This document shows positions 766 through 32,570 of a DNA stretch of 51,750 nucleotides, in pieces. The stretch covers positions 1 to 51,750 of the forward strand of contig JACPJP010000018.1 of NCBI GenBank assembly GCA_016187495.1. Direction: 5' to 3'. Numbering within the stretch: the stretch's first letter is position 1; each line of letters opens with the position of its first letter. The DNA comes from Candidatus Woesearchaeota archaeon. GTDB lineage: Archaea; Nanobdellota; Nanobdellia; Woesearchaeales; GW2011-AR4. Position numbers and translations under genes: made by a program. The notes under the pieces were generated by a model. That model had not been told where the DNA came from. It ran no database searches and was given only the letters and a program-made list of their open reading frames with translations.

Positions 766-773
766 CAGCAATC

Positions 774-782
774 TTTTTAAAA
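774..782 (+). promoter_or_regulatory. TATA box for the tRNA-Met gene
   Basis: TTTTTAAAA sits about 30 nt before the first base of the tRNA at 810, the usual archaeal TATA-to-start spacing. Called by eye. Confidence 0.5.
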
Positions 783-809
783 CACCCTCCTTTTCTTTTA
801 TAGCTTATC

Positions 810-979
810 GCCGGAGTAGCTCAGCCTGGTTAGAGCGCTAGAAACGAAAATTTTAGCGATACTCATATATTTGAGTTATGAAGCTTTATGCTGATGATAT
901 ACCTCAAACCGGGTCATCTAGAGTGCTTAATTATATTGAGCATGGATTAAGGTCGTGGTTTCAAGTACCGCCTCCGGCA
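810..979 (+). tRNA. tRNA-Met (CAT, elongator type) with three predicted BHB introns
   Basis: Acceptor GCCGGAG (810-816) pairs with CTCCGGC (972-978), discriminator A979. D arm is 819-836; T arm is 955-971 with loop TTCAAGT. The gene is 170 nt, and a normal tRNA appears only after removing three segments. Intron 1 (842-860) has helix GAG/CTC (833-835/862-864), central helix CGCT/AGCG (836-839/855-858) and 3-nt bulges AGA and ATA. Intron 2 (868-915) is at the canonical 37/38 site, with inner helix TTTGAG/CTCAAA (870-875/903-908) and one A-C mismatch in the central helix. Intron 3 (922-949) has central helix ATCT/GGAT (916-919/944-947), bulges AGA and TAA, and a 6-bp inner helix. The spliced product is 75 nt with stem CTAGA/TCTAG, anticodon loop CTCATAA and variable loop AGGTC. 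The identity rests on this splicing model. Confidence 0.8.
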
Positions 980-2345: not shown

Positions 2346-2374
2346 CCATCGTTGAGTCCCTTTTAGTGTTTACC

Positions 2375-3499
2375 ATGAAAAAAATAATGGTTATAGGGGC
2401 AGGGATTATAGGATTGAGCATTTCTTACTATCTAAAAAAGCATAATTTCGACATTACACTAATAGAAAAAAACAAGGCAGGAATGGAAGCGTCTTACGCA
2501 GCCGCTGGAATGCTTGCAGCCCAATCCGAATTTGATTTTTATGAGGATTTTATGGACTTCTGCATTAAAAGCCGCAATATGTATTTGGATTATTGCAATG
2601 AAATAGAAAAAGCATCTGGAATTAATGTGGAATACCAAAAAAGCGGTATGATCAGGCCTGCATTAAATGAAGATCACGAAAAACATTTGAGAGCAAATCA
2701 CCAATGGCAGAAAAGCAAGGGATTTGAAATAGAATTTCTGTCTGGTAAAGAAATAAGGGAAATTGAGCCAAGTTTGTCAAAAAATATTATTTCTGGCTTA
2801 TATTCAAAAGATGATGGCCAAGTAAACAACAGAAAGCTAATGCAGGCTTTAATCATAGCCAATAAAAAGATAGGCAACAAAATAATCGAGAATACAGAAA
2901 TAAAAGGTCATTTAATAAAAAATAATAGAATCATCGGGGTAAAAACATGCAATGATGAAACTTTTAATGCAGACATTGTTATTAACACTGCTGGATCGTG
3001 GTCTTCTTTAATCTCTAAGGATTTAATACCTAACTTTAATGTTAAGCCTATACTAGGCCAAATGGTTTCCTTGCAGTCAGATAAGCCTTTATTGAATAAG
3101 GTCATTTTCGCATCTATACTTGGCAAAGGAGGCTATATTGTGCCAAGAAGAAATAACGAAATAATATTGGGCTCAACAATGGAAGATGCAGGTTTTGAGA
3201 AAACAGTTACAGAAGAGGGTATAAATTCAATACTGCAAAAATGCAATGAAGTAGTCCCTGAATTAAAAAAATTGAAAATAAAGGAAACATGGTCGGGCTT
3301 TAGGCCATTTGCATCAGACAATCTGCCAATAATAGGAAAAACAAGCATTGAAAATTTAGTCCTTGCAACAGCTCATGGAAGAAATGGAATTCTTTTAGCC
3401 CCAATAACAGCAAAAGCAGTCGAAGAGCTTGTAACGAACGATAAAATAATGCCAGAAATTAAGGATTTTGGGGTTGAGAGGTTTAATAATAAAGCATAA
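2375..3499 (+). CDS. thiO: Glycine oxidase (FAD-dependent), ThiO
   Basis: Oxidises glycine to dehydroglycine (iminoglycine) with O2, feeding thiazole synthesis for thiamine. The 374-aa protein begins with a Rossmann FAD-binding motif (GAGIIG, residues about 9-14) and has the ThiO-like signature ASYAAAGMLAAQSE. Near the end, GFRPFASDNLPIIG and ATAHGRNGILLAP match the C-terminal FAD-binding region of the DadA/ThiO family. ThiE is convergent 6 bp downstream, and thiG/thiS lie 6 kb away, which supports the thiamine role. The start at 2375 gives MKKIMVIGAG; a GTG nine bases upstream is the alternative. A general D-amino-acid oxidase is the other possibility. Confidence 0.88.
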   Translation: MKKIMVIGAGIIGLSISYYLKKHNFDITLIEKNKAGMEASYAAAGMLAAQSEFDFYEDFMDFCIKSRNMYLDYCNEIEKASGINVEYQKSGMIRPALNEDHEKHLRANHQWQKSKGFEIEFLSGKEIREIEPSLSKNIISGLYSKDDGQVNNRKLMQALIIANKKIGNKIIENTEIKGHLIKNNRIIGVKTCNDETFNADIVINTAGSWSSLISKDLIPNFNVKPILGQMVSLQSDKPLLNKVIFASILGKGGYIVPRRNNEIILGSTMEDAGFEKTVTEEGINSILQKCNEVVPELKKLKIKETWSGFRPFASDNLPIIGKTSIENLVLATAHGRNGILLAPITAKAVEELVTNDKIMPEIKDFGVERFNNKA

Positions 3500-3505
3500 T
3501 AACAA

Positions 3506-4132
3506 TTAAGATTTCTTAATCTTCTCAACAATCTCCTTAGCAGCCTCTTTAACATTCTCAGCAGCTACAACAGCGCTTATAACCGCGACATTCCTTACAC
3601 CTTGCGCTAAAACTTCATCAATATTACTTTTATTTATTCCCCCAATAGCAATTAATGGCTTACTGACTTTACTTACAATTTCCTTGATTAACCTGGTTCC
3701 AACAGTATAGTCCTTAGCCCTAGTCTTAAAAATCGGCCCTATGGTTATATAATCAACATCTTCCTTATCAGCCTTAATTGCTTGCTCAATGCTATGCGTT
3801 GATAAACCAATAATTAACTTATCCCCACAAATCTTCCTTGCTTCTTTTATTGGCATATCTAATTGTCCTAGATGAACCCCATCGGCTCCAATCTCTAGAG
3901 TAACATCAACGTAATCATTAACGATAAAAAGGACATTATTTTTTCTGCATATTTCTAATAATTTGATGGCTTCTTTCTTAATCTTATTTTTGTCCCACTG
4001 CTTTTCCCTTAATTGGATTATCTCTGCCCCGCCTTTTATTGCTTCTTTAACTACAAATTCATTGCTCCTTCCTTTAGAGATAGCACTTTCTGTTATTACA
4101 TACAGATTATTATCAAAATTAAATCTTTTCAT
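3506..4132 (-). CDS. thiE: Thiamine-phosphate synthase
   Basis: Couples HMP pyrophosphate with thiazole phosphate to make thiamine phosphate. The 208-aa TIM-barrel protein is the normal length for ThiE. Visible family motifs are IIQLREK (pyrophosphate/HMP binding), VNDYVDVTLEIGADGVHLGQ, and YITIGPIFKTRAK in the phosphate-binding loop, followed by AIGGIN and AVISAVV. It is convergent with thiO and divergent from tgt. It is the stand-alone ThiE form rather than the ThiD-ThiN fusion common in other archaea. Confidence 0.93.
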   Translation of the reverse strand: MKRFNFDNNLYVITESAISKGRSNEFVVKEAIKGGAEIIQLREKQWDKNKIKKEAIKLLEICRKNNVLFIVNDYVDVTLEIGADGVHLGQLDMPIKEARKICGDKLIIGLSTHSIEQAIKADKEDVDYITIGPIFKTRAKDYTVGTRLIKEIVSKVSKPLIAIGGINKSNIDEVLAQGVRNVAVISAVVAAENVKEAAKEIVEKIKKS

Positions 4133-4245
4133 ATTAATAGGAATTATTTTGACATTTTTAATTATTATTGTTTGTTTTGTTTGTTGTATTAATAAATATT
4201 ATTTTTGCGACATATTTATTAATGAACTTATTTAGCCTAAATTAT

Positions 4246-5481
4246 ATGGACTTTGAAATAAAAGCTAAATTAAAATCCTCAAGGGCAAGAGCAGGCATAA
4301 TAACGGTACCTCATGGAAAGATACATACGCCTTATTTTATTCCTGTAGCCACATCAGCAACCGTCCGTGCATTAGACCAAGAAGACATGAATTCTTTAGG
4401 CGCAGAAGTATTATTGGCAAACACCTACCATCTTCATTTAAAGCCCGGAGATAAAATAATAAAGAAATTAGGCGGCTTGCATAAATTCATGAACTGGAAC
4501 AGGCCATTGTTTACTGATTCTGGAGGCTTCCAGGCATTCTCCTTAGGGTATGGGATGGAGCACAGCATCAACAAGTTAGGGACAATTTTTCCGGAAAAAA
4601 AGAAAGCAGCGGAAAAGCAGCCGAAAATCGCAGAGATAAATGATGACGGTGTTACATTCAATGACCCTTCGTCAGGAAAATTAGTGCACCTTAATCCTAA
4701 AAAATCAATGCAAATACAGCAAAACCTTGGAGCTGACATAATTTTGGCTTTTGACGAATGCACCTCTCCATTATCCAGCTATGAATATACCAAAAAGGCA
4801 ATGGAACGAACTCATAAATGGGCAAAAGAATCATTGCATCATCATAAAAAATCGTTAATAGCTAGAAAAAATAAATATAAAGATAAATATGGAAATCAAT
4901 CGTTGTATGGCATTGTGCAAGGCGGGGCTTATAAAGATTTGCGCATAAAATCTGCAAAATTTATTTCCTCATTAAATTTTGATGGCATAGCTATTGGCGG
5001 CTCTTTAGGAAAATCAAAAGAAGATATGCACCGCATTTTAAGCTGGGTTATCCAATTATTGCCGGAAAACAAGCCAAGGCATTTGCTGGGCATAGGGGAA
5101 ATAGAAGACATATTTAAGTGCGTGGAAAAGGGCATTGACACTTTTGACTGCGTAATGCCTACAAGGATAGGGAGAAGAGGCTCTTTGTTCATAAGCCCAA
5201 AATCACATGGTAACTTAAAAAACAAGTTCCGCATTAATATAAAAAACTTGAAATACAAATTGGACAGAAAACCGATAGATAAAAACTGCGAGTGTTTAGC
5301 TTGCAGGAAATATTCCAGGGCATATATGAATCACCTTTACAAATCACAGGAATTAGCATATTACAAATTAGCTTCATTGCATAACCTTAATTTTATGCTA
5401 AGATTAATGGAAAAAATAAGAGACTCTATTTGCAAAAGTTATTTTAATGAATTAAAGAACGAGTGGTTAAAGAAGTATTAA
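4246..5481 (+). CDS. tgt: Queuine/preQ1 tRNA-guanine transglycosylase, bacterial type
   Basis: Exchanges guanine-34 of GUN-anticodon tRNAs for a 7-deazaguanine base. It is 411 aa with no PUA domain, the size of the bacterial/eukaryotic enzyme rather than archaeal arcTGT. Visible residues: FTDSGGFQ (D91), FDECTSP (D170), nucleophile FDCVMPTR (D301), and zinc ligands C348, C350, C353 and H379. The loop aligning by eye with the bacterial GGLAVGE loop reads GGSLGKS (251-257), with Gly at the position of Zymomonas Val233, as in queuine-using enzymes. A roughly 20-aa insertion lies near 104-126. The start at 4246 (MDFEIKAK) fits homology and a TATA-like ATTTATTA about 27 nt upstream; the longer frame adds an unlikely hydrophobic tail. 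The next gene is a YhhQ-type transporter, convergent. Confidence 0.93.
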   Translation: MDFEIKAKLKSSRARAGIITVPHGKIHTPYFIPVATSATVRALDQEDMNSLGAEVLLANTYHLHLKPGDKIIKKLGGLHKFMNWNRPLFTDSGGFQAFSLGYGMEHSINKLGTIFPEKKKAAEKQPKIAEINDDGVTFNDPSSGKLVHLNPKKSMQIQQNLGADIILAFDECTSPLSSYEYTKKAMERTHKWAKESLHHHKKSLIARKNKYKDKYGNQSLYGIVQGGAYKDLRIKSAKFISSLNFDGIAIGGSLGKSKEDMHRILSWVIQLLPENKPRHLLGIGEIEDIFKCVEKGIDTFDCVMPTRIGRRGSLFISPKSHGNLKNKFRINIKNLKYKLDRKPIDKNCECLACRKYSRAYMNHLYKSQELAYYKLASLHNLNFMLRLMEKIRDSICKSYFNELKNEWLKKY

Positions 5482-5497
5482 ATCATTCATTGTTAAA

Positions 5498-6160
5498 CTA
5501 ATCATTGCTGGCATAAATTGGATCTTCTGGCACGAGGTATATCATCCAGAAAGTAAACAGTGTTATTATTGCCTTTACCGCTATATTGGTCAAAAACATC
5601 TGCAGGATTACGGTGCCAGGGACTATTCCTATGAAAGCTATTATCGGAAATAATATGCTGTCAATGGGTATGGAAAAAGAGTTTGATATTATAACTCTTG
5701 TCCATTGCGGCATGTGGCTTCCAATGCCTAAAGTCCAGAACTGGTAAACATAAGTGTCAATTATTTCAGATATCAAGAAAGCTATTACAGAGCCAATTAC
5801 TATCCTTAGCTGTATTCCAAACAAAAACTCCCAAGCCTTTTGGCCCCCGGCAGCAGCCCATGAGGTTTCAGCAGGAAGCATAACTACAAGCTGGAAATAC
5901 AAAGCTGCAATTATATTTATTACCCCAGCAACGTAAATTGTGGTTAAAGCCGCTTTTTTCCCAAGCTGTTTATGGATAAGGTCGCGCCACGTAAAAGTTA
6001 ATGCATATATAAATCCAGCATCCATTATTAATTTCCCAAAATAAGTTACTTTTGTAGCCGCAATATTTGAAGCCAAAGATATGAATATGTAAACCCCGCA
6101 AAGAATTATAGTTGCTTGGGTCTTGCTTATCTTGAAGGTTTCTCTTATTGCTCTTGACAT
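5498..6160 (-). CDS. Queuosine-precursor transporter, YhhQ/VUT family
   Basis: A 220-aa integral membrane protein with about six hydrophobic helices. It has the family pattern SNIAATKVTYFG near the N-terminus, an acidic/basic membrane-border motif (FTWRDLIHKQLGKKAA), and SEIIDTYVYQFW followed by RVIISNSFSIPIDSILF. YhhQ proteins import queuosine precursors (preQ0, preQ1 or queuine). The gene ends 16 bp from the stop of tgt, so supply of the base and its insertion into tRNA are encoded side by side. The substrate preference cannot be read from the sequence. Confidence 0.88.
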   Translation of the reverse strand: MSRAIRETFKISKTQATIILCGVYIFISLASNIAATKVTYFGKLIMDAGFIYALTFTWRDLIHKQLGKKAALTTIYVAGVINIIAALYFQLVVMLPAETSWAAAGGQKAWEFLFGIQLRIVIGSVIAFLISEIIDTYVYQFWTLGIGSHMPQWTRVIISNSFSIPIDSILFPIIAFIGIVPGTVILQMFLTNIAVKAIITLFTFWMIYLVPEDPIYASND

Positions 6161-32109: not shown

Positions 32110-32465
32110 TTTTGTACATTGAATTTTTGATTTTATCTTATGCACACAAATATTTGCGTGAATTTAGTTTCTTTCACTTCATATTTCTTTTTTGCAATGA
32201 ACAATATTATCATTAACAGGAAAAATTTCCATCTTCCTGCGTTAATGAAATTTTTGATCTTATATTTTTTTGTACAGCCACATCAGATTATTTTTTGCTT
32301 TTGCCATACAAGCAAGCAAAAAATCCTATTATTATTAATCTTTATTGAATAAATATTATTGTTTGGAAATATGAATTTACTTTTACTTTTTTGTTATCAA
32401 AGCGTTTGTGCAGTTTAATGGATTTTTAGTTTAATGCATTCCCATTCATGTTACATTTATTTTAA
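32110..32465. other. Intergenic region without a recognisable gene
   Basis: About 355 bp of AT-rich DNA between eL18 and tRNA-Leu. Short frames on the plus strand (for example from 32140) have no recognisable content. The region probably holds the promoter for the eL18 operon on the minus strand and the 3' end of the rpoD/tRNA-Leu transcript. I see no repeat or stable hairpin in it. Confidence 0.5.
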
Positions 32466-32549
32466 TGCGGGGGACGTGATTCGAACACGCGTACCCACTA
32501 AGGGACAAGGCCCTCGACCTTGCGCATTTGGCCACTCTGCCACCCCCGC
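32466..32549 (-). tRNA. tRNA-Leu (GAG), no intron
   Basis: An 84-nt type II tRNA. Acceptor GCGGGGG (32549-32543) pairs with CCCCCGC (32473-32467), discriminator A32466. The anticodon stem CAAGG/CCTTG encloses loop TCGAGGG with anticodon GAG. It has a long variable arm and T loop TTCGAAT. Position 33 reads C instead of the nearly universal U. It lies 21 bp after the rpoD stop on the same strand, the usual archaeal position, and is probably processed from that transcript. Confidence 0.93.
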
Positions 32550-32570
32550 AATAAGCATAAATGCAGGGAT

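Follow-up and report, generated by a model that had tools for sequence, protein, structure and literature searches.

The window analysed here, a stretch of 51,750 nucleotides, is a contig of a 778-kb genome (67% complete) of a woesearchaeal DPANN archaeon. Beside the 3′ part of a gene for an archaeal-type prolyl-tRNA synthetase lies a tRNA-Met(CAU) gene, most likely for the elongator, that contains three bulge-helix-bulge (BHB) introns (Table 1) and that, to judge by its sequence and orthologs, is functional. Excision of the introns in silico leaves GCCGGAGTAGCTCAGCCTGGTTAGAGCGCTAGACTCATAATCTAGAGGTCGTGGTTTCAAGTACCGCCTCCGGCA, a 75-nt RNA that ARAGORN recognizes as a complete tRNA-Met(cat) and in which the acceptor, D, anticodon and T stems are all perfect. 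The unspliced gene was not called by ARAGORN and had no match in Rfam at default filters; under permissive filters RF00005 spans it exactly, at 36.2 bits with a cut-off of 29. Because of this blind spot in ARAGORN, DPANN genomes like this one may be recorded as having no tRNA-Met. The sole tRNA called by this program in the window is a tRNA-Leu(GAG) at 32465-32550 on the minus strand. Upstream of the tRNA-Met gene is the promoter-like element AGCAATCTTTTTAAAAC, and a similar element is found at about the same distance in 11/11 orthologs inspected.

Table 1. Features of the tRNA-Met gene and of the putative guide in its canonical intron (window coordinates).
Feature	Position	Strand	Support
Promoter-like element, TATA/BRE-like, ~30 nt upstream of the tRNA	767..783	+	conserved
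Elongator tRNA-Met(CAU) gene, three introns	810..979	+	splicing in silico, orthologs, RF00005
Exon 1, tRNA nt 1-30	810..841	+	spliced cloverleaf
Intron 1, position 30/31; central helix 836-839 CGCU with 855-858 AGCG	842..860	+	4/4 in 13/13 distinct orthologous introns
Exon 2, nt 31-37, ACUCAUA; C34 = 864	861..867	+	spliced cloverleaf
Intron 2, canonical position 37/38; central helix 862-865 CUCA with 910-913 CGGG, 3/4 pairs	868..915	+	
Putative guide UGAGU, complementary to nt 31-35 (861-865); G873 pairs with C34 (864)	872..876	+	
D-type box AUGA, non-bulged kink-turn strand	878..881	+	NUGA conservation
Stem I hairpin of kink-turn, AGC-UUUAU-GCU	882..892	+	stem covariation
C-type box GAUGA: 3-nt bulge GAU, then GA of tandem G.A pairs	893..897	+	
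CUCAAA, copy of the target sequence within the intron; pairing possible with UUUGAG 870-875	903..908	+	direct from sequence
Exon 3, nt 38-43	916..921	+	spliced cloverleaf
Intron 3, position 43/44; central helix 916-919 AUCU with 944-947 GGAU	922..949	+	
Exon 4, nt 44-73	950..979	+	spliced cloverleaf

An earlier note on this DNA had proposed a tRNA-Met gene with three BHB introns, whose 75-nt product appears only once three segments are removed and whose middle exons measure 7 and 6 nt. Splicing bears this out (exons of 32, 7, 6 and 30 nt), as do the orthologs, in which the intron positions recur. The note was also right about the junctions, two of which it gave 4-bp central helices and the canonical one a single mismatch. 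We found all four pairs at 30/31, all four at 43/44 (one of them G-U) and three at 37/38, where A35 faces C. Thus introns 1 and 3 have the full 4-bp helix between two 3-nt bulges and intron 2 has three of the four pairs, an arrangement kept in orthologs.

The tRNA has a CAU anticodon and a full cloverleaf, and it is most likely elongator tRNA-Met because of its acceptor stem, GCCG..CGGC, which we take to be of the Met type, and because the genome encodes its own tRNA-Ile(UAU) and therefore needs no tRNA-Ile2(CAU). The tRNA-Ile(UAU) gene, itself with introns, lies at positions 2318-2424 of contig C14, and it is apparently this tRNA, not a modified CAU tRNA, that decodes AUA in the genome. Of the tRNA genes recovered from this genome, an incomplete inventory, nearly all are interrupted. 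Four different tRNA genes carry introns of about 41 nt at the same T-loop site (C14:1056-1182 and genes starting at C14:2318, C24:32744 and C24:11252), and these introns are 71-90% mutually identical, which suggests that they may have spread between tRNA genes. Elsewhere in the window are a bacterial-type tRNA-guanine(34) transglycosylase (4168-5481, plus strand; TIGR00430, 507 bits) and beside it a queuosine precursor transporter (5498-6160, minus strand), queuosine salvage genes in an archaeon. Adjacent genes for ThiO (glycine oxidase; 2366-3499) and ThiE (3506-4132) are also present in this small DPANN genome.

Orthologs were collected by a DNA search of a 36-genome family and by a pattern scan of 84,980 species. 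Among the 80 pattern matches listed, 73 were archaeal and 7 were chance matches in bacteria. The archaeal matches listed are mostly from Woesearchaeota, with some labelled Nanoarchaeota, Nanohaloarchaea, Aenigmatarchaeota, Micrarchaeota or Diapherotrites, and close orthologs are in records labelled Candidatus Woesearchaeota. None of the listed strict-pattern matches came from Euryarchaea or Crenarchaea, whose D-arms may not fit the pattern. All three introns occur together in at least three relatives, and others lack one or two of them. The earlier note had regarded three introns in one gene as notable; we dropped this point of novelty, since three introns are found in these relatives and have been recorded for Pyrobaculum tRNA-Glu and tRNA-Pro (PMC4390854). 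Some tRNA-Met genes of relatives have a further intron in the T-arm, and in two the D-arm is apparently interrupted.

The central helices were scored across distinct introns. At 30/31 all 13 have four of four pairs and at 43/44 all nine have three or four; among 53 distinct introns at 37/38 the helix has four pairs in 26, three in 19 and two in 8. The chance of a 4/4 central helix is about 0.02, and with the positions recurring, chance is excluded as the source of these predicted BHB helices. The 30/31 and 43/44 introns are, by their sequences, ordinary BHB introns that relatives have gained or lost. All pattern-scan orthologs have the 37/38 intron, partly since the search pattern extended into it. 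A search of this 67%-complete assembly for the splicing endonuclease, which the earlier note had proposed as a check, recovered no PF01974 gene; in the family, 30/36 members have the gene. In one relative the enzyme has N and C domains and resembles those of Nanoarchaeum and Methanocaldococcus.

It is the "imperfect" canonical intron that is the remarkable element at this locus. Within it is a conserved putative guide of the box C/D type directed at C34, an element that the earlier note did not see. Comparison of the 37/38 introns shows a single predicted box D′/C′-type kink-turn together with a five-nucleotide guide to nt 31-35 that places C34 at N+5. Here the kink-turn reads AUGA-AGC-loop-GCU-GAU-GA (878-897) and lies 3′ of the guide. 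Counting upstream from the D-type box, G873 is the fifth nucleotide; it stands opposite C34, the position at which box C/D RNAs direct 2′-O-methylation under the N+5 rule (PMC2584109). The introns (36-85 nt; 48 nt here) share one order: a short spacer, UGAG(U/C), one base, NUGA, a hairpin mostly of 2-5 bp, and NAUGA. Across orthologs UGAG(U/C) is complementary to (A/G)31-C32-U33-C34-A35. Read as a kink-turn, the hairpin is stem I, NAU supplies the three bulged nucleotides, and the tandem G.A pairs come from the two GA steps. We discarded an arrangement in which stem I joins RUGAUGA directly; covariation places the 3-nt NAU bulge before GA, as in a U4-like kink-turn. The minimum-energy fold of the exon-intron fragment contains both the guide duplex and the hairpin. 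In one relative's gene, recovered as two loci, the kink-turn hairpin carries an insertion of about 40 nt, with stem I and both boxes intact.

The first pattern scan was baited with part of the guide, so the search was repeated with a covariance model built from the exons only, with the intron columns left blank. The model was applied to 353 genomes in the order, and 90 of the best-scoring loci were examined. We found the guide and kink-turn at exact N+5 spacing in 58 of 65 distinct 37/38 introns among these best-scoring loci, a prevalence biased toward introns near 44 nt by the 44-nt spacer of the model. Shuffled introns gave 0.06 devices per set. The guide pairs with nt 31 in 58/58 cases (38 G-C and 20 A-U, with zero mismatches). 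Both pair states occur within each of five families, and the double change has therefore happened repeatedly. Stem I covaries (GC, CG, AT and TA); its first pair forms in 52/52 introns by five pair types, and its second in 51/51 by four. The D-type box is NUGA in 51/52 distinct introns found by pattern and in 49/57 found by exons; the remainder are NNGA.

A direct pattern scan of 371 genomes found matches in 111, compared with four matches overall to the reversed control pattern. The matches fall in 109 of the 199 genomes of the order, a few of them looking like chance by eye, and in 2 of the 172 genomes of the class's other orders, one of these being a real tRNA-Met. These controls and the shuffles lead us to reject a chance origin of the guide. 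In about 870 kb of fetched loci, N+5 devices match RCUCA 99 times, with all other targets combined near the shuffle background, and none on other tRNAs rose above it. Some relatives have an intronless tRNA-Met (five loci) or an intron that lacks the device (seven loci); thus the device is dispensable.

The genome encodes the proteins that such an element would need, namely L7Ae (C7:35339-35620), Nop5 (C3:14498-15136) and fibrillarin (C3:16354-17004). Archaeal C/D sRNAs normally need a C/D plus a C′/D′ motif (PMC8413462), and the intron sequences have one kink-turn motif. Compared with canonical CUGA and RUGAUGA, box D is mostly NUGA and box C is NAUGA with a degenerate 3′ end, while the GA of both kink-turn strands is conserved. 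The N+5 placement of the target is that of a canonical C/D sRNA, and stem I covariation, the NAU bulge and the GA/GA steps are, at the sequence level, consistent with kink-turn geometry. Our data suggest that the element would work like a C/D guide; because it has a single C/D motif we do not class it as a canonical C/D sRNA.

We consider it likely that the 37/38 intron encodes a guide for a predicted Cm34, probably acting in the pre-tRNA before splicing. L7Ae would bind the kink-turn and Nop5 and fibrillarin would then join. The guide would base-pair within the same pre-tRNA to the anticodon arm, where fibrillarin would methylate the 2′-OH of C34 to give Cm34. A switch might follow in which the guide pairs with the intron's CUCAAA and the exon's CUCA with CGGG, after which the splicing endonuclease could cut and a ligase join the exons. 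CUCAAA would compete with the exon for the guide, and a similar CUCAA is found in many orthologs. By sequence the two conformers are mutually exclusive, as exon nucleotides 862-865 pair either with the guide (methylation) or with 910-913 (splicing). Exon nt 32-35 take part in the guide duplex and also form the exon strand of the BHB central helix, so methylation would have to precede splicing. That methylation occurs, and occurs first, we infer from the parallels of tRNA-Trp and H. volcanii tRNA-Met (PMC2584109). Points against a guide are the short duplex (5-8 bp), the degeneracy of the C-type box after AUGA and a D box of AUGA rather than CUGA. A fuller proposal is that this is a minimal single-kink-turn guide acting in cis, in which competition between guide and splice pairing orders methylation and splicing, and that it is the usual route to Cm34 in numerous families of a single DPANN order, and in further DPANN lineages scattered outside it. 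We advance this tentatively, rating it at slightly less than an even chance.

The intron might instead guide in trans, either after excision, possibly as a circle, or from another pre-tRNA. The Haloferax tRNA-Trp intron guide acts in trans in vitro (PMC7994747), the Nanoarchaeum tRNA-Met intron is described as a stable, abundant RNA (PMC3491384), and in a circularized intron the D′-C′ order would read as a normal C...D guide. However, a guide of 5-8 bp within about 10 nt of its target in the same molecule favours action in cis, and on mature tRNA-Met the anticodon stem would need opening at nt 31. We regard action in trans as unlikely, while giving it appreciable weight. It is improbable that the kink-turn and UGAG serve folding or splicing only, for example through L7Ae binding that presents the BHB, with no methylation. 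UGAG can indeed form pairs with CUCAA of the intron as well, and either conformer is plausible. Yet covariation links guide position -2 to exon nt 31, a nucleotide that plays no part in the BHB, and the distance from guide to D box keeps the one value that puts C34 on target, whereas the loop between target and guide varies. The order also has device-free introns in tRNA-Met genes that are intact in other respects, which argues that the device is not needed for splicing.

Two other identities for the gene were rejected as very improbable. A tRNA-Ile2(CAU) would be compatible with the anticodon and with A73, which suit either identity, but it is opposed by the tRNA-Ile(UAU) of the same genome, by the presumably Met-type acceptor stem and by a predicted methylation target, C34, that is that of archaeal elongator tRNA-Met (PMC2584109). 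A degenerate, inactive copy with an intact elongator tRNA-Met elsewhere would find room in a 67%-complete assembly, but the perfect stems of the spliced tRNA, the conserved promoter-like element and the covarying orthologs speak against it, and own-genome tRNA searches, an incomplete inventory, found no other CTCATA anticodon loop.

The reading we prefer, an intron-encoded guide for Cm34, can be set beside several known systems. Multi-intron tRNA genes of Thermoproteales likewise have three BHB introns per gene, non-canonical sites included; the present gene differs in belonging to a DPANN lineage and in having a putative guide element inside one of its introns. Stand-alone C/D sRNAs of the sR49 type (Pyrococcus, Haloferax) have the same predicted target, Cm34 of elongator tRNA-Met, under the same N+5 rule, but they are separate genes whereas the guide here lies inside the intron. 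The Cm34 guide of tRNA-Met has been stated to lie always outside the intron, in stand-alone sRNAs (PMC2584109), a statement that our reading would contradict. In the literature searched, whose coverage is incomplete, we found no published report of the conserved DPANN device or of its C34 target. The nearest DPANN case is the 66-nt intron of elongator tRNA-Met in Nanoarchaeum equitans, the same host tRNA, for which a stable C/D-like RNA was proposed by Randau in 2012 (PMC3491384). The main-text section of that report gives no target and no comparative evidence, and the likeness drawn here is to its description. Our reading suggests a target for that RNA.

The closest parallel in function is the guide in the tRNA-Trp intron of Euryarchaeota (sR50, directing Cm34 and Um39 in Haloferax), described in a 2014 review as a unique example (PMC4090602). 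It too lies in the 37/38 intron of its own target, aims at nt 34 and requires modification before splicing. The host here is tRNA-Met rather than tRNA-Trp, the intron is shorter (about 65-103 nt in tRNA-Trp), and there is one D′/C′ kink-turn in place of C/D plus C′/D′ and one target in place of two. The intron would offer a natural system in which to ask whether archaeal fibrillarin RNPs can work with a single kink-turn and whether splicing is gated by tRNA modification. If our reading is true, tRNA-Met would join tRNA-Trp as a second case of an intron retained because it guides modification of its own host tRNA, here in a very compact form.
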